Below are positions 31,128-39,453 of a DNA stretch of 47,494 nt, one piece after another (within the stretch, counting starts at the first letter, position 1; every line of letters starts with the position of its first letter). Origin of the DNA: an uncultured Clostridia bacterium (lineage in GTDB: Bacteria > Bacillota > Clostridia > TANB77 > CAG-508); NCBI GenBank assembly GCA_904419495.1, contig CAJFRV010000017.1:1-47494 (forward strand), written 5' to 3'. The notes below the pieces were generated by a model that was given only the letters and a program-made list of their open reading frames with translations, did no database searches and was not told where the DNA came from. Both the position numbers and the translations under genes were made by a program.

Positions 31128-31328
31128 GATTGTCATTAAGCAAGCATATATATTATTTTTTATTAATTGACGAATGTGACGTGGAGTAGATGTACAAATT
31201 CTTAATTTTAAACAAATGAGGAAGCGAGATATCGAGAGGCTCGTTTGTTTAAAATTTAGAATTTGTAATCTATGGAGCTAGCCGAGGAAATAATAAAAAA
31301 TAATATATATGCTTGCTTAATGATAATC
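31128..31328. repeat. Large nested inverted-repeat element 1
   Basis: 33-bp perfect outer arms (31133-31165 / 31291-31323), 38 bp with one mismatch; inner 24-bp stem (31193-31216 / 31244-31267) with one mismatch. Confidence 0.9.
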
Positions 31329-31438
31329 ATATCTCAATAGAAACGTAATATATTATATTTTTATGACTTTTATATGATTTCATTTACAAAAACTTTAAAT
31401 TTATATATAATCTTCATATAAAATAATTTTTTTGGGGG

Positions 31439-33622
31439 ATGCAAATGAAATATTTAAAATACTTTTTTAGAAAGATTAAAAAAATGGTAAAAGGCATTAT
31501 TGTAAATGCAAAACCTTTTCTATTTATTATACTAATTCTCTTTTTATCTATAGCATCTGAAGGCTATACATGGGAAGATTTTGGTCTTGATGGATTTAGC
31601 TTAAATCCCAATGATTACTGCAATTTAACAGATATTGACTACACCGCAGTTTTACATGATGATCCAAATGGAAATGCCAGTGTTGAAATTACAGAATATT
31701 TAACATTTGATGTGCATGCAGGCTCAAAATCTAATACCTATAAAGAATTATGGAGAGAACTTCCCGAAGAATATGTTGATGGATTAAAGGTAACTTATGA
31801 TGTCAAATCAGTTACACAAATTCTGGACAATGGTCAAGAAATACCTTATTCAGAAACTTCTAAAATGTATTGGGAAGATTCCGACTATACCCAAAGTTCA
31901 ACTATGCGTTGGCATCATAGTGATAGCTCAGGAAGTTATCCAGATAATGATGAGTCTTTGCTAATATACATTCCTTGGACATATCGAGAAAAAATGACTT
32001 TTAAAATTGTATATTCTATGAACAATGCAGCTTTAAAATATAATGATTGTTCTGAATTATATTTAGCTATGTATTCTGGAAATACGATTACAAAACTAAA
32101 TTCTTATAAAGCTCAAATTCTCATACCAGATGAAATAATGCCATCCACTTACTATGCATATACATTTGGAACGGCTAATAATCGATTGCCGCTTATCGAA
32201 TCAGATTATATAAATGATGGCTATCATACATTTTCAATTAATTTGGATAAGTCTGATTTAAAATTCAATTATCACAATCGTTATATAGAATTTTGTTTAT
32301 TGGCATATGGTGATGATAAACATATTTTTACAAAATATGCACCTAATAATAGATATTCAAATGAAAATGTTTTAGAGGAATGTATTGCAGAAAATGAATA
32401 TTATGAAACGCAAAATAGAAAATTTGATACATATAAAACACTATTATTGATAGCATCTATATTTGGTACGATTTTAATAGTGTATACTACAAAAAATAAG
32501 TATATGAAAACTAAGGAAAAATACAACTTATATACCCCAGAGGTAGACTATGATTATTTTAGAGAAATACCAAGTGACTTAGACCCTATTTTTGCTTCTG
32601 AGTTAGTATTTATGAAAGATCCTTTTGATGAAAATAAAGAAAAACAAGAAGAATATGCAGCAATTTTACTTAGTTTAGTAAGAAAGAAATATGTTAACAT
32701 TACGAAATTAGATAATAATCTTGACTGGGATAGTTCAAATACAGTCATTTCTATAGAACCTACTCGCACCAATTACGCAACACCAGCTTTTACGGATTCT
32801 CCAGATTATTCACCAGAACCTATTTATACAACAATAAATGAAAATACTGGTGATGTTTTAGAGCCACTTACTACTTCTGAAAGACTTTATTTAGAATTAT
32901 TGGAAAGACATTCTAGAACTTATCATAATTCAATTACAATTAATCAATTACAAAAATGTATTGATAATGATTATGTATATACAAATGCATTTGTGAAAGA
33001 TATAGAAAAGAAACCTATTTTAGAAAGTGGTGTCATGCAAGGATATTTCCAAAGTGCAGATTATGATGCACCTAAAAAAGAGCTCAATAAAAGTGCTAAG
33101 TCAAGCCTAATTTTAGGATTAATTTTATTAATTGTTATAAATCTAATTTCCTACTTTACACCTATGGCATTAGCCTTCGGGGCATATACGATTTTTGGAA
33201 TCGCTTGTTTGTGGAAATATTTTTATCTAACTTCAAAAGCAAGTAATTTAGTTTTATTTACACAATATGGAGCTAATGAACAAGCTAAATGGTATGGTTT
33301 ATACAATTTCTTAAATAGTGATACTTTGATGAATGAAAAAGAAGTTCATGAATTACCTTTATGGGAAAAATATTTGATTTACGCAACTGCTTTTGGTATT
33401 TCTGAAAAAGTGATAAAAGCGATAAAGATACATGCAGTAGAATTAAATATTGATAGCAGTCCTATATTAAACCATCATTTTTATATTCACTCAAGTAGCT
33501 TTCATAGGACCTCTAGAGCCTTTGGTCGCTCTATTCATACCTCCTCAAGAGGCGGTGGATTTGGTGGACATGGTTATGGTGGAGGCGGCCGTGGAGGCGG
33601 CGGTGGTGGCGGAGGCCATTAA
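31439..33622 (+). CDS. DUF2207-type predicted membrane protein with Gly-rich C-terminus
   Basis: DYTAVLHDDPNGNASVEITEYLTFDVHAGS...WRELPEEYVDGLKV; TM segments; tail SSRGGGFGGHGYGGGGRGGGGGGGGH. Confidence 0.82.
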   Translation: MQMKYLKYFFRKIKKMVKGIIVNAKPFLFIILILFLSIASEGYTWEDFGLDGFSLNPNDYCNLTDIDYTAVLHDDPNGNASVEITEYLTFDVHAGSKSNTYKELWRELPEEYVDGLKVTYDVKSVTQILDNGQEIPYSETSKMYWEDSDYTQSSTMRWHHSDSSGSYPDNDESLLIYIPWTYREKMTFKIVYSMNNAALKYNDCSELYLAMYSGNTITKLNSYKAQILIPDEIMPSTYYAYTFGTANNRLPLIESDYINDGYHTFSINLDKSDLKFNYHNRYIEFCLLAYGDDKHIFTKYAPNNRYSNENVLEECIAENEYYETQNRKFDTYKTLLLIASIFGTILIVYTTKNKYMKTKEKYNLYTPEVDYDYFREIPSDLDPIFASELVFMKDPFDENKEKQEEYAAILLSLVRKKYVNITKLDNNLDWDSSNTVISIEPTRTNYATPAFTDSPDYSPEPIYTTINENTGDVLEPLTTSERLYLELLERHSRTYHNSITINQLQKCIDNDYVYTNAFVKDIEKKPILESGVMQGYFQSADYDAPKKELNKSAKSSLILGLILLIVINLISYFTPMALAFGAYTIFGIACLWKYFYLTSKASNLVLFTQYGANEQAKWYGLYNFLNSDTLMNEKEVHELPLWEKYLIYATAFGISEKVIKAIKIHAVELNIDSSPILNHHFYIHSSSFHRTSRAFGRSIHTSSRGGGFGGHGYGGGGRGGGGGGGGH

Positions 33623-33650
33623 TACTACCTAAAAGATATCCTATAAAAGA

Positions 33651-33680
33651 AAAGAAAGAGTGTTAAAATACTCTTTCTTT
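33651..33680. terminator. Bidirectional terminator between DUF2207 and homospermidine-synthase-like genes
   Basis: AAAGAAAGAGT-GTTAAAAT-ACTCTTTCTTT with T tail. Confidence 0.75.
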
Positions 33681-33705
33681 TTATTTAAAATTTAAATTCT
33701 TGCTA

Positions 33706-35169
33706 CTATTGATTCTTCAATATGTCTTTTAATTGTAAACAATTTAATTGAATATCAAGACTATGTTCTATTTTTTCTCTAGGAATGGTTTTGTAAATTG
33801 TTTTTGAAATATATTTTTCTGCAAAATGAATGATTTCTCTATATTCCTTAATGTCATCAGGAAAATATATTCCTCCTTTATCTTTATTTTTTATCATCCA
33901 GCAAACAGCTGCTAACGCTGACATGGCAACAGGTGTTATTGTTGGTGTTTGCCAGAAGGATGATTTTTTGTCCTTATATAAAAAATGTTTCTTAATTCTA
34001 TTTCCTACCCATACTGGCTCAAATTTATCTCCTAATAATAGTATTCCTACATATTCTGTGCCTCGTTTTATATTTTCTTTGTAAGGAATTTCTGCTCTTT
34101 TAGGGTATTTAAATCCTCGTATAATTGAAATATCATCATCTTGTGGCTTATGGATATCTGGATGAAGATAATCATTTACTTTCGCTTTTTTCAAGTATTT
34201 TACTGCAAATTCACAAGGAGAGTATAAAAATATAACTGTTGGTCTATATACGACCTCCTCCCCTTTTTTTACTTCAAGAGATTTTGCTATCGTTATTGTC
34301 TCTTCGTGAGGAACTAAAAATCCTTCAAATTCTCCTTTTGGATAATATGTTTTTCCTACTTTATCAATTGCTATATCTTTAAATTCTAAAAAACCATTTT
34401 TTAAATCTAGCTTTTTACATTCTTTTTCATAATCGATTTTCTCACTCGTACCAATATTAGCAGTTGCTTCACTTAACATTTCGAAGAAAAATGAATCCAC
34501 TGACCATGTACTATATAGTTTGTTTTCATCAAATTTTTCTTTGATTTCTTGATAATCATTATCATTTACGTGAACTTCTTTTAAATCAAGAGCCTTCGCA
34601 AGTTCATTGAATTTATTTTCCTTTAAAAGTTTATGATATTCTTCATTATTCTTAAATTGCTTTTTTACAATGTATTCTAGCCCTGCTTTTACAAAATGAG
34701 AAACCAACCCAGGATTATTTCCATGTTGCAACACGATAGGATATTTATTCACATTGCTTTTTTGCTTTAATTGATTTCGTGATTCATTTTTTTTCAAGTT
34801 TTCTTCAAAAATATTATACCAATTATCGCTCCAATCTGTCTCTCCTGTGTTTAGATACATGATATTTTTATTTGCACACCATTCTATGAAATCTTTTGTA
34901 CCAACACTATCAGCAAAATCAATTAATAAATCGCCCTCTTCTAAATATTTTGAAAATATGCTTTTGAAATTTTCTCTATTAATATCCGCTACAAGGAAGT
35001 TCCCCATCTTCCCTCCAAGTTCGAGAAAAAAAGTATATTCAAGCTTATCCCTAGATATTACGAAATATTTGTCTTTATCATATTTTATTTCTTTAGAAAT
35101 TTTCTCGAAAAAACTTTTTCCTACTGCACCAAAGCCAAATTGTACTATTTTATTTTTAAATTCAATCAT
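33706..35169 (-). CDS. Homospermidine synthase-like / saccharopine-dehydrogenase-fold enzyme
   Basis: IVQFGFGAVGKSFF Rossmann motif, DLLIDFADSVGTKDFIEWC, YLNTGETDW, VLQHGNNPGLVSHFVKAGLEYI, FLYSPCEFAVKYLK. Confidence 0.85.
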   Translation of the reverse strand: MIEFKNKIVQFGFGAVGKSFFEKISKEIKYDKDKYFVISRDKLEYTFFLELGGKMGNFLVADINRENFKSIFSKYLEEGDLLIDFADSVGTKDFIEWCANKNIMYLNTGETDWSDNWYNIFEENLKKNESRNQLKQKSNVNKYPIVLQHGNNPGLVSHFVKAGLEYIVKKQFKNNEEYHKLLKENKFNELAKALDLKEVHVNDNDYQEIKEKFDENKLYSTWSVDSFFFEMLSEATANIGTSEKIDYEKECKKLDLKNGFLEFKDIAIDKVGKTYYPKGEFEGFLVPHEETITIAKSLEVKKGEEVVYRPTVIFLYSPCEFAVKYLKKAKVNDYLHPDIHKPQDDDISIIRGFKYPKRAEIPYKENIKRGTEYVGILLLGDKFEPVWVGNRIKKHFLYKDKKSSFWQTPTITPVAMSALAAVCWMIKNKDKGGIYFPDDIKEYREIIHFAEKYISKTIYKTIPREKIEHSLDIQLNCLQLKDILKNQ

Positions 35170-35173
35170 TGTT

Positions 35174-35836
35174 CTATATTTCTTCTTTCTCTAATCGTTC
35201 TTTTATTGTTTTTGTTAATATGACTTTTTTTGGAAATACATATCCATCTGTTATATAAATCTCCATTCCTTTTTCTTGAAATTTTAAGAAAATTTTTTTC
35301 AAGTCTGGTTGAATTTTATCTCCTACCACTATGATTTTCACTATACCATTTTTCTTAAAATATTCAGATGTTGGAATATCATGTTTGTATAAATCCCAAC
35401 TATTATCAAAAATAGATTCCTTTGCTCTATATCTATTTGTTCTATAGCTATCAATCAAAAAAGCTGGGTTTGCATCATTTTTTAGTTGTATATTTTTTAA
35501 TTTTTCACTTCCATTTATTAAGCAACTTTCAATTAAATACGTATTTGTCGTTGCTTGTGCGTCTTGTTGTTCATCCGTCCCATTAAAAACTGGTATGGGT
35601 CTATAACCTAGATGTGCTAAATCGATTCCCAATTCTATACTTTCTTTACCCGGTAAATCAATAAATATCGCTGTATCTTGTTGATATTTTTTTAAAAACA
35701 TTGCTTTTCTATCTAGCCAATCACCAATAGGTTGTCTATGATAAGTATCAATTGCAACAAATGGTACTGGTCTCACCCATTGTGTCCATTTCGCACCTTC
35801 AGGTGCATATATTTTATATATTTCTTTTCCTCTCAT
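35174..35836 (-). CDS. Hypothetical protein, 220 aa, in the polyamine-like operon
   Basis: ORF with 4-11 nt gaps to its neighbours; YAPEGAKWTQWVRPVPFVAIDTYHRQPIGDW; no family recognised. Confidence 0.75.
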   Translation of the reverse strand: MRGKEIYKIYAPEGAKWTQWVRPVPFVAIDTYHRQPIGDWLDRKAMFLKKYQQDTAIFIDLPGKESIELGIDLAHLGYRPIPVFNGTDEQQDAQATTNTYLIESCLINGSEKLKNIQLKNDANPAFLIDSYRTNRYRAKESIFDNSWDLYKHDIPTSEYFKKNGIVKIIVVGDKIQPDLKKIFLKFQEKGMEIYITDGYVFPKKVILTKTIKERLEKEEI

Positions 35837-35847
35837 TTTCTTACCCT

Positions 35848-37053
35848 CTATTTTTCAATTAATACTGGAATATCTTCTGCATAAGAATCAATTCTTGGAT
35901 ATGGACTCATTCGTGCATAATATCCAGCATGCTCTCCTTCTATTGTATATGAGCCAAGACAAATATGGTATTCTTTTCCATCTTCACTTTTTAATGGTTT
36001 ACTTTGGAAGTTTTTCTGTGCCAAGTATTGCTTTGGATGCTTTTTTACATCTTGTAAAATTCTTTCATATTCATCTTCTTTACACGCTTCTTTAATTGAA
36101 ATCCTCTCTCCTACTCTACCATAAACTGGTTTATATATAAACCCTTCTTTTTTTCCTACATCCTTTACTTCTACTGTTTCTGGTAATAATGTTTTCCACG
36201 TTTTCATACAAATACCAGCTTTTTCCAGCTCTTCCCAAACAAACGGAAATCTTTTGCTTTGAGCATATATGCTAATAGGATGGTTGCAAGATTTCGTTAT
36301 GGTGTTAAAGTATCCATCCCATCTGCGTGGTTTCATTTGGATAAGCCATTCCAATGGAGTAAATCTAAAAATTAAATCTATACTTTCTTGATTATTATCT
36401 AAAATACAATAAGCTTTTTTATCTTTAAAATTAATATGATCTGCTGCTCCATAAATAATCTTGTAACCTTCCTTTTCAAGTCTATCTCCTAAGTATTGCA
36501 TAACTTGCCTATCATCACTAAAGCAAGTACAATGTACCATCATAATCGTTCCTTTTTTGTTTAATTTGTTGTTTATTGTATCCACCATTTTTTCACCAAA
36601 TGAATGATATTCTAATTCAGGCATATTTATCATTTTACGTGCTATATCTGGTAATAGTGAACTTTCTGCAAAACCTCCTGGACAATCACTATTTACTTCA
36701 GTTACAACCCAATGATTGTCTGTGCTTGGATGAAAATCATATCTCATAAGTCTAATATTTTGAGTTTTATCATAAGTTTGCATATTTGGTATTTGCTTTA
36801 AAATTTGTTTAGGAAGTGCTAATTTTTTTGCAAGTTTACGATTTTGATTTAAATATTCTTCTGCTAATCTAGTTTCTTTATCTAAGCTTTTGGTAAGCTT
36901 AATGATTTCTTCATTTTCTTTTTGCGTTAATATCAATATATGTTTTGATAAAGTGTTACTATCACAAAACTGTGGATCCCATTTATAGCAGTCAAACATG
37001 GCTTGAATTTTATATTCATAATATCTATCTTCGGGAATCTTGATTAATTTCAT
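35848..37053 (-). CDS. Glutathionylspermidine synthase-like ATP-grasp protein
   Basis: RYDFHPSTDNHWVVTEVNSDCPGGFAESSLLP, DLIFRFTPLEWLIQ, GFIYKPVYGRVGERISI resemble GSP_synth-type ATP-grasp signatures. Confidence 0.8.
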   Translation of the reverse strand: MKLIKIPEDRYYEYKIQAMFDCYKWDPQFCDSNTLSKHILILTQKENEEIIKLTKSLDKETRLAEEYLNQNRKLAKKLALPKQILKQIPNMQTYDKTQNIRLMRYDFHPSTDNHWVVTEVNSDCPGGFAESSLLPDIARKMINMPELEYHSFGEKMVDTINNKLNKKGTIMMVHCTCFSDDRQVMQYLGDRLEKEGYKIIYGAADHINFKDKKAYCILDNNQESIDLIFRFTPLEWLIQMKPRRWDGYFNTITKSCNHPISIYAQSKRFPFVWEELEKAGICMKTWKTLLPETVEVKDVGKKEGFIYKPVYGRVGERISIKEACKEDEYERILQDVKKHPKQYLAQKNFQSKPLKSEDGKEYHICLGSYTIEGEHAGYYARMSPYPRIDSYAEDIPVLIEK

Positions 37054-37089
37054 AACCTCTCTCTTTTCTCTACAAATTACAATTTTTCA

Positions 37090-37602
37090 TTATATTCCAA
37101 ATTCCTTTGCATATTGGACAACACCTGTTATTTCTATGTCTGTGTCATTCAATTTCATAGCCATAAAATTTTCATTAGCCACATCAAAAGGTGCTTGTAT
37201 TCCATATTGTGTTGCTGGAATGTATCCAAACTTTGGATAATAGTTCTCACTTCCTAAGACAATAGAATAATGATATCCTAATTTTTTAGCTATCTTATGT
37301 CCTTGCTCAATTAGCATACTACCAATTCCTTGTTTTTGGTATTCTGGTAATACAGCAAGTGGTGCTAAAGCTATTTCTTCATAATTTTCTATTTTTATTT
37401 TTGTAAATAAAATATATCCTACAATTTTATCATCTTTAACAGCTACTAATGATAATTCTGGAATAAAACTATCACTATTCCTTAAAGCCACTACCAAATC
37501 CTGTTCATTTCCATCACTATGTTCTGCCATTTCAAACGCTGTTTTGACAACCATATATACTTCTTCATAATCTTTTTGATTTTCTTGTCTTATTTCTATC
37601 AT
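37090..37602 (-). CDS. GNAT family N-acetyltransferase (YhbS-like)
   Basis: IALAPLAVLPEYQKQGIGSMLIEQGHKIAKKLGYHYSIVLGSENYYPKFGYIPATQYGI. Confidence 0.92.
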   Translation of the reverse strand: MIEIRQENQKDYEEVYMVVKTAFEMAEHSDGNEQDLVVALRNSDSFIPELSLVAVKDDKIVGYILFTKIKIENYEEIALAPLAVLPEYQKQGIGSMLIEQGHKIAKKLGYHYSIVLGSENYYPKFGYIPATQYGIQAPFDVANENFMAMKLNDTDIEITGVVQYAKEFGI

Positions 37603-37653
37603 ATTACATTCTCCTCACAACTTGTTATTATCCATCTAAGCATATCATAAAAA

Positions 37654-37700
37654 AGAAAATTATTCTATATATCAGACCAAAGCCTGTAAAATAATTTTCT
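37654..37700 (-). terminator. Terminator downstream of the P-type ATPase-derived gene
   Basis: AGAAAATTATT...AATAATTTTCT with TTTTTTATG on the minus strand. Confidence 0.65.
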
Positions 37701-37724
37701 AAAAGGTAATATTTTGTTAAATAT

Positions 37725-39107
37725 TTATGGTGCTTTACATAACTTTCTTTTTATAAAAATAATCACATAACTAATTATCGCTAAAATCACAACAATTCCT
37801 ATTTGCTCAACTACCAATGGTGATAATTTTAATAAATTTCTAAATAGATATGTTGCCACATAGAATCCAACAGCTGTTGTACTAAATAAAAATGCATGAA
37901 CTTTATTAAATGGCATACAAACCTCTTGAACGGCTAATATACTTACAAATCCAATTAGTAGGTACATCATAGTAGTTAATGTATTTTGCTCTATTCCCAT
38001 ACCATTTCCTAAAACTGTTAAAACTATTATATTTAACATAATTACAATGGCAAATGGAAGTGCATTTGTTAAGGCTGTCTTCAAAAATGTTCCTTTAATT
38101 GGTTTTTCATTTCTTTCAAAAGATATAAAGAAAGAGGTATATGCTTCAATTACTAAGTCTATTAATGTAATTTGTATTGGTATAAATGGAAATTCCATAT
38201 TGGTTAATATACAAAATACAGATAATAAAATAGAATATATAGTTTTAATAAAAAATATTCTTGCAACACTTGTAATGTTATTAACCACTCTTCTTCCTTC
38301 CATTAGTACATCTTTTAAGACACTAAAATTAATAAGACTAACCCTTTTGGTAACATTCCGAAGTAATGCTGCTGCTGTTGCAATGACTGATTGTGTGATA
38401 TCTGTTTGTCTTGTAATATATGCTTGTATAAATAGAATAATTCCAAATGGAATAATGACAAAACTTGTAAATCTTGTTACCTTTTTCATAGAATTAATTA
38501 ATTCTGAATTGTTAGATTTTTGTTTTTTTGCTGAACTAATAATTCTATTGGCAAAATTATTCTCTCCTACTTTTTCTATTTTGGCATAACATTTTCCACT
38601 AACCACATAACTTCCTGAAAGCAATGTGTCTTTTTCACTTTTTAAGATTAAATCTGATTCTCCTGTAAGTAAGGATTCATTAACTTCTATTTCTCCACTG
38701 ATAATTTGTGCATCTGATGGAATTTGATCTCCTTGTGCTAAAACAATTGTATCTCCTAATACGATTTCTTCTACATCTATTTTTTTCTCTTTTCCATTTC
38801 TTATGACAGTTGCTTTTGCTGTATTTAGAATCGACAATTTTTTCACTAAATTTTTTCCATGGATTTCTTGTATAATACCAATGAAAACATTTACTGCGAT
38901 AATTGCAAAAAAGAATACATTTGTATATGCTTTTACTGAAATTAATGCAATCGCAATTATCAAATTATATAAATTAAATAATGTAAATACATTGTCAGCA
39001 ATAATCTTCCAATTTGATTTTAAATTGTCTTTTGGAAGTGTATTCACATTTCCTTTTTGTATTTGTTCTTCTACTTCTTTGTTTGATAATCCGTGTATTT
39101 TGTCCAT
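37725..39107 (-). CDS. P-type cation ATPase-derived membrane protein lacking the catalytic P/N domains
   Basis: N-terminal HGLSNKEVEEQIQKGNVN, actuator VEVNESLLTGESDLILKS, C-terminal VLMEGRRVVNNITSVARIFFIKTIYSILL and TM bundle present; no DKTGT, no TGDGVND. Confidence 0.85.
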   Translation of the reverse strand: MDKIHGLSNKEVEEQIQKGNVNTLPKDNLKSNWKIIADNVFTLFNLYNLIIAIALISVKAYTNVFFFAIIAVNVFIGIIQEIHGKNLVKKLSILNTAKATVIRNGKEKKIDVEEIVLGDTIVLAQGDQIPSDAQIISGEIEVNESLLTGESDLILKSEKDTLLSGSYVVSGKCYAKIEKVGENNFANRIISSAKKQKSNNSELINSMKKVTRFTSFVIIPFGIILFIQAYITRQTDITQSVIATAAALLRNVTKRVSLINFSVLKDVLMEGRRVVNNITSVARIFFIKTIYSILLSVFCILTNMEFPFIPIQITLIDLVIEAYTSFFISFERNEKPIKGTFLKTALTNALPFAIVIMLNIIVLTVLGNGMGIEQNTLTTMMYLLIGFVSILAVQEVCMPFNKVHAFLFSTTAVGFYVATYLFRNLLKLSPLVVEQIGIVVILAIISYVIIFIKRKLCKAP

Positions 39108-39143
39108 TTTTTTAATATCCTTCCTTTCTTAAGGCACAAATCT

Positions 39144-39274
39144 GGTTGGAAAAGAATTAAATTTTGGCTAGGAAAACGAGTTTGAAATTTATGAGGCGTA
39201 CTAACTGTACGTTGAATAAATTTCAAATGAAGTTCGCCACTGCGCAACGCCAAAATTGTAATTATTTTTCAACC
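39144..39274. repeat. Large nested inverted-repeat element 2
   Basis: Outer GGTTGGAAAAGAATTAAATTTTGGC (39144-39168) / GCCAAAATTGTAATTATTTTTCAACC (39249-39274); inner TTTGAAATTTAT (39181-39192) / ATAAATTTCAAA (39216-39227); apical CGTAC-TAACT-GTACG. Confidence 0.85.
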
Positions 39275-39453
39275 ATCCTTTCTTTTATCATAAGTCTTAA
39301 CATTTATTACACGATGAAAAAACAAAAAGGTTGGAAAATTTTTTAAAAAATTGTCAATAATACAAAAAAACAGAATTAAGTATGTATTGCACAAACCATT
39401 TGTAGTTTTACAACATCTCCTAATTCTGCTTTTAATATTATTCTTATAAATTT

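Follow-up and report, generated by a model that had tools for sequence, protein, structure and literature searches.

Two nested hairpins on a 47,494-nucleotide contig of an uncultured Clostridia bacterium (CAJFRV010000017.1, assembly GCA_904419495.1; the window, which is contig C17 of the 64 that make up a 1.71-Mb genome) are copies of two separate, unrelated families of dispersed repeats (Table 1). The reading that we regard as probable is that both are non-autonomous palindromic mobile elements resembling miniature inverted-repeat transposable elements (MITEs), moved by a transposase acting in trans, and that the long arms of the first family are kept paired by template switching. The hairpins themselves, described in an earlier note on this DNA, are real: against dinucleotide shuffles, element 1 folds with z scores of -13.5 as DNA and -13.9 as RNA and element 2 with -7.3 and -8.2, and none of 200 shuffles equals either. 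Of the two natures that the note had suggested for them, a non-autonomous hairpin element and a structured RNA, the former is the right one.

Do the two hairpins belong to one family, as the note also proposed on the strength of shared internal motifs? Three observations show that they do not: (i) the covariance model of family 1 (R1), which gives element 1 148 bits, gives element 2 9.3 bits (E 8.5), amid many chance matches; (ii) 678 of 1000 shuffles reach the local similarity between elements 1 and 2, and 531 of 1000 that between the two consensus sequences; and (iii) in element 2, CCAC belongs to one variant only. The strings that were quoted do occur, but GGCTAG followed by AAA has 18 matches, a count that 5 of 100 shuffles reach, and CCACNNCNCA..CGYC, found at 31169-31184 (minus strand) and 39237-39251 (plus strand) and in none of 100 shuffles, is a pattern derived from these very two places. 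Other copies of element 2 read GTTTAACGACGCC or similar at the CCAC-bearing stretch, the longer variant being confined to 2 of 32 parsed copies (in the window and at G007/L045). Family 1, for its part, keeps just CTCGG.T and CACAtTCG almost unchanged and is variable at GGCTAG and CCAC.

Family 2, that of element 2, is present in 63 of 97 genomes of the same genus. The site of element 2 is empty in four relatives (G072, G046, G035 and G085), which reveals a 145-bp insertion with a 9-bp target duplication, TCCTTTCTT, the complement of the Shine-Dalgarno-like AAGAAAGGA that precedes an E1-E2 ATPase gene; the left end of the element reaches 12-13 nt past its inverted part. Among 30 copies with enough flank, an open reading frame (ORF) of at least 100 codons begins no more than 90 nt away, in the same sense in 26, in the opposite sense in one, on both sides in one and on neither in two; family 2 thus favours, or is tolerated in, a single orientation just upstream of genes. 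A cis-regulatory RNA of a gene set was considered and rejected: the copies precede unrelated genes (pta, grpE, an ABC permease, recD2 and others, named by eye from translations), and Rfam is silent. In the window's own genome, blastn picks up element 2 again as additional copies, as stems alone and as half arms; half arms (TTGAAAAATAATTACAA) at L019 and L020 (G000:C33:4699 and G000:C7:58009) lie immediately 5' of Shine-Dalgarno-like sequences and could be remnants or promoters.

Family 1 is found by blastn in 40 of the 97 genomes of the genus. Across the order, R1 detects it in 47 of 191 genomes (E no higher than 1e-6) and in 11 of 39 genera, 46 of the 47 lying in the window's family and one in another. 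Among the matches listed by a pattern scan, related records are nearly all metagenome-assembled genomes titled uncultured Clostridia or Eubacteriales, several of them of chicken, rabbit or goat origin; listed matches in Streptococcus, Methylocapsa, Zipacnadia, Acidobacteria and viruses appear coding and were judged by inspection to be chance. Element 1 has same-site copies in G072, G035 and G085. The terminal inverted repeats of the family include GTTACARTTCACRG and TTAAGTTTCAG; copies with GTTACARTTCACAG ends are flanked by 8-bp direct repeats (CTCACTTT at L060, TTATATTG at L133, CATAAACT at L276 and TACCAGTA at L275), and there are solo palindromes, such as L286, built of such ends alone. 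A family-1 element of G046, set against the empty site of G033 (L111 versus L107), shows duplication of an A-run. The two families have the makings of MITEs: they are small, dispersed and multicopy, have terminal inverted repeats and target duplications (in family 1 unclear at many copies), and hold no transposase gene.

Insertion bears on where the arms of family 1 come from. If insertion duplicated the adjacent target in inverted form, the locus-specific arms would be duplicated host DNA; such an origin would suit the variation of arms between loci, and G072 and G035, which have one arm only where G085 holds the full hairpin. It is, however, highly improbable: arms at different loci have common ends (TTAAGTTTCAGTATTTTT, GTTACARTTCACAG), the same arms stand at different loci in G060, the empty site of G033 has neither arm of the G046 element, and the one-arm sites resemble deletions within a palindrome. 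Arms common to unrelated loci contradict this source outright.

The arms were compared in 65 copies, found by pattern among the loci in hand rather than in all genomes, after 2 of 67 had been dropped as chance. In a strict alignment their outer arms, about 25-105 bp long (median 47), form 3105 Watson-Crick pairs, with 76 transition mismatches, 108 transversion mismatches and 54 gaps, and are perfect in 22 copies. Between copies (58 compared) the loops are 95% identical and the arms 67% (57% when shuffled), yet within a single copy the identity of the two arms is 92%; the arms have thus diverged without unpairing. The earlier remark that stems are unrelated yet paired holds within family 1, much more strongly than claimed, but not between elements 1 and 2. 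These values also tell against the view that the elements are common MITEs derived from a known insertion sequence, with arms paired because the copies are too recent to diverge: although such MITEs would have the terminal inverted repeats and 8-bp duplications seen here, and G060 and G145 are indeed rich in near-identical copies, conserved loops beside divergent arms do not fit recent origin, and same-site copies of different species have different but paired arms. We consider this explanation unlikely.

Compensatory change in a stem is conventionally taken to prove a functional RNA, and family 1 has it in abundance: its covariation score, 0.393, compares with 0.113 in shuffles (none of 500 as high) and at most 0.079 in slid controls. 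But is this covariation RNA-like? In the inner hairpin (set A2: 18 diverse sequences, less than 93% identical to one another, other apical modules left out), 76 cells carry two-sided changes and 2 one-sided, and G-U pairs make up 0.3%; 30 signal recognition particle (SRP) RNAs of the same genus, folded and counted by one and the same script, give 47 and 49 with 10.8% G-U. Alignment A3, in which one row (L046) is misplaced, does not enter these counts. The ratio of two-sided to one-sided changes is 38 in family 1 and 0.96 in SRP RNA, and the covariation is therefore not RNA-like. The outer arms show no strand asymmetry either: their transition mismatches, which would be G-U on one strand or the other, split 41/35. 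Selection on RNA should leave G-U intermediates, whereas copying of one arm from the other should not, and the strong covariation with almost no G-U accordingly probably reflects DNA copying.

A structured RNA, cis-regulatory or trans-acting, with stems kept by selection and dispersal as a secondary matter, would account for the 95% conserved loops, the high covariation score and an inner stem with conserved internal motifs. Near absence of G-U and of one-sided changes speaks against it, as do the strand-symmetric mismatches, outer arms of variable length that reach about 100 bp, a centre that flips relative to its flanks (see below) and the silence of Rfam, whose covariance models give no match at gathering score in the window and, in seven loci, none at an E of 1 or below. 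The comparison with Rfam thus yields no known family, the step from compensated stems to selection on folded RNA is unsupported, and a structured RNA is quite unlikely.

What happens to the arms over time can be followed where different species have copies at the same site. Twelve such sites were run, one pair each, and ten kept; J was removed because its copies (L065 and L153) share one genome and are paralogous, and L for doubtful flanks. In the ten, 77 arm columns have changed: 43 in both arms and still paired, 24 in one arm, and 10 in both arms with pairing lost; independent arms would give about 5.6 paired changes (with J and L kept, 50 of 90 columns are paired changes against 6.1 expected). 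The cleaner sites B and E have 4/4 and 3/5 paired changes, while G (1/12), H (0/2) and I (0/4) have mostly one-arm changes. Moreover, the centre is inverted relative to the flanks in 5 of 11 same-site groups, assembled by hand with same-genome and doubtful groups excluded.

Mirrored arm changes and inverted centres match the published signature of template switching, which is why this mechanism is proposed. In the accessible parts of the sources, arm homogenisation and spacer inversion are given as its outcome (PMC8604942) and hairpin stems as maintained by it (PMC8794818); the likeness to quasipalindrome correction described there extends to multi-base mirrored changes. The systems differ, however: those accessible parts deal with short repeats in yeast genes and with RNA genes, whereas here a mobile family with arms of about 25-105 bp occupies many loci. 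Both families are dispersed across a genus of uncultured gut Clostridia, and family 1 has reached other genera of its family as well; they insert with short target duplications, family 2 nearly always in one orientation just 5' of genes, as comparison of copies shows. In the mechanism that we envisage, a transposase supplied in trans would mobilise both, and might recognise the loops, which in family 1 are conserved rather than the ends. The long arms would be free to drift, complementarity being restored whenever DNA synthesis occasionally copied one arm from the other, and the same template switching on an extruded hairpin could invert the centre.

Several observations weigh against this scheme. 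No partner transposase was found: the 30 ORFs of the window, compared with Pfam, contain no transposase, integrase or reverse transcriptase domain, in line with the earlier note, and unpaired family-1 ends have ordinary genes as their neighbours (ten ORFs). A search of G145 produced no long element, its arms giving pairs, contig ends and solo palindromes, and target duplications are clear at only part of the family-1 copies. Sites A and C supply much of the paired-change count, their differences being large enough for replacement by another copy, and an alignment shift among the 16 columns of site A inflates it; copying must also be incomplete, since in 34 of the 77 columns the change was not a paired one. 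Finally, family 2 lacks arm divergence of the family-1 type, almost every copy having the same two fixed mismatches, a recurrent G.T and a G.A.

Genome G145 holds longer relatives of family 1, 444-513 bp, with extra tiers of stems and loops; the longest open stretch in five of them is 48 aa. Their inner 140 bp are 85-99% alike but their outer 80 bp, which fall into two or more end types, only 56-82%. Reshuffling or nesting of cores and ends has thus taken place. This leads to a bolder and rather doubtful idea: such elements may be recognised by their hairpin loops, not their ends, and settle at the centres of other palindromes, which would produce nested hairpins and place the same core within two end types in one genome, the arms being freely evolving, self-copying handles paired by template switching and not by selection.

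How do these families compare with known repeats? REP/REPIN sequences are dispersed palindromes mobilised in trans by TnpA-REP, and hairpin structure is a further likeness; the elements here are much longer, nested and flanked by 8-9 bp duplications, and no Y1 transposase of the TnpA-REP type is among the 30 ORFs of the window (a genome-wide Y1 search was not made). Mitochondrial double-hairpin, or repetitive hairpin, elements vary in their stems and keep their loops; they too are dispersed paired hairpins, but organellar, and are set beside family 1 by description and not by sequence. Bacterial MITEs and the pneumococcal BOX, RUP and SPRITE repeats, as far as the accessible text of two sources goes (PMC3049150, PMC10969869), are likewise short, AT-rich, dispersed, non-coding hairpins with target duplications and mutual insertion, often beside genes. 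Family 1 differs from them, within the same limits, in conserving internal and apical loops above arms that diverge yet stay complementary. Homology to BOX is striking by eye (GCTAGCCG, TGACGTGG) yet at chance level for family 1: against its consensus, the BOX element in L161 shows no significant similarity (486 of 1000 shuffles as high); against element 2, 28 of 1000 shuffles are as high.

MITE-like repeats and template switching at inverted repeats are already known; the open-access literature searched held no paper on these families or on this combination, which is weak evidence of absence. Family 1 offers a natural replicate, across many loci and many species, of strong covariation without an RNA signature. 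It is thus a warning for the discovery of RNAs in metagenomes and supplies a test (G-U share, strand symmetry and one-sided changes), as well as a natural system for measuring the rates of arm copying and centre inversion.

Table 1. Hairpin elements of the window and their parts
Feature	Position	Strand	Basis
Element 1, whole nested hairpin, family-1 copy	31128..31325	-	Fold z -13.5; family-1 blastn matches; same-site copies
Element 1 outer arm, 3' side (33 bp, pairs with 31291-31323), locus-specific sequence	31133..31165	-	Fold, inverted repeat I1
Element 1 outer arm, 5' side	31291..31323	-	Fold, inverted repeat I1
Family-1 conserved core: left loop, inner stem, apical module, right loop	31165..31294	-	Covariance model R1, 148.1 bits, E 3.6e-33
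Element 1 inner stem arm, pairs with 31240-31267	31193..31220	-	Inverted repeat I2, 28 nt, 93% complementary
Element 1 inner stem arm, pairs with 31193-31220	31240..31267	-	Inverted repeat I2
Element 2, inserted unit, 145 bp, family 2; upstream of E1-E2 ATPase gene 37725-39107 (-)	39131..39275	+	Empty site in 4 relatives; Pfam for gene
Element 2 hairpin	39144..39274	+	Fold z -7.3
Target duplication, left copy, TCCTTTCTT (AAGAAAGGA on -), at Shine-Dalgarno-like stretch of ATPase gene	39122..39130	+	Empty-site comparison
Target duplication, right copy, TCCTTTCTT	39276..39284	+	Empty-site comparison
Variant stretch with CCACTGCGCA motif, longer than in most copies	39230..39250	+	125-nt form in 2/32 parsed copies; alignment

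Some smaller observations accompany these features. An extra outer loop pair (GAGGAATGTTCACG and CTGAGTGAAAGAGGC) outside the family-1 core recurs in L065, L066, L075, L077, L081 and L331-L340, and other copies carry different apical modules (ATACCCGAAAACAGGACCC); the hairpins of family 1 look modular. Single-arm remnants of the family-1 hairpin at L098, L099 and L101, in G072, G035 and G080, fit deletions within a palindrome. The intergenic gap that holds family 1 in relatives contains, at L109 (G000:C28:17300-18150), an additional unrelated hairpin (GTCCAATTGGGGACGTTTCTTTTTGGACA and its complement). The gene downstream of element 2 encodes a 460-aa protein with Pfam Cation_ATPase_N and E1-E2_ATPase domains, in which Pfam reports no hydrolase domain; its product is possibly a shortened P-type ATPase.

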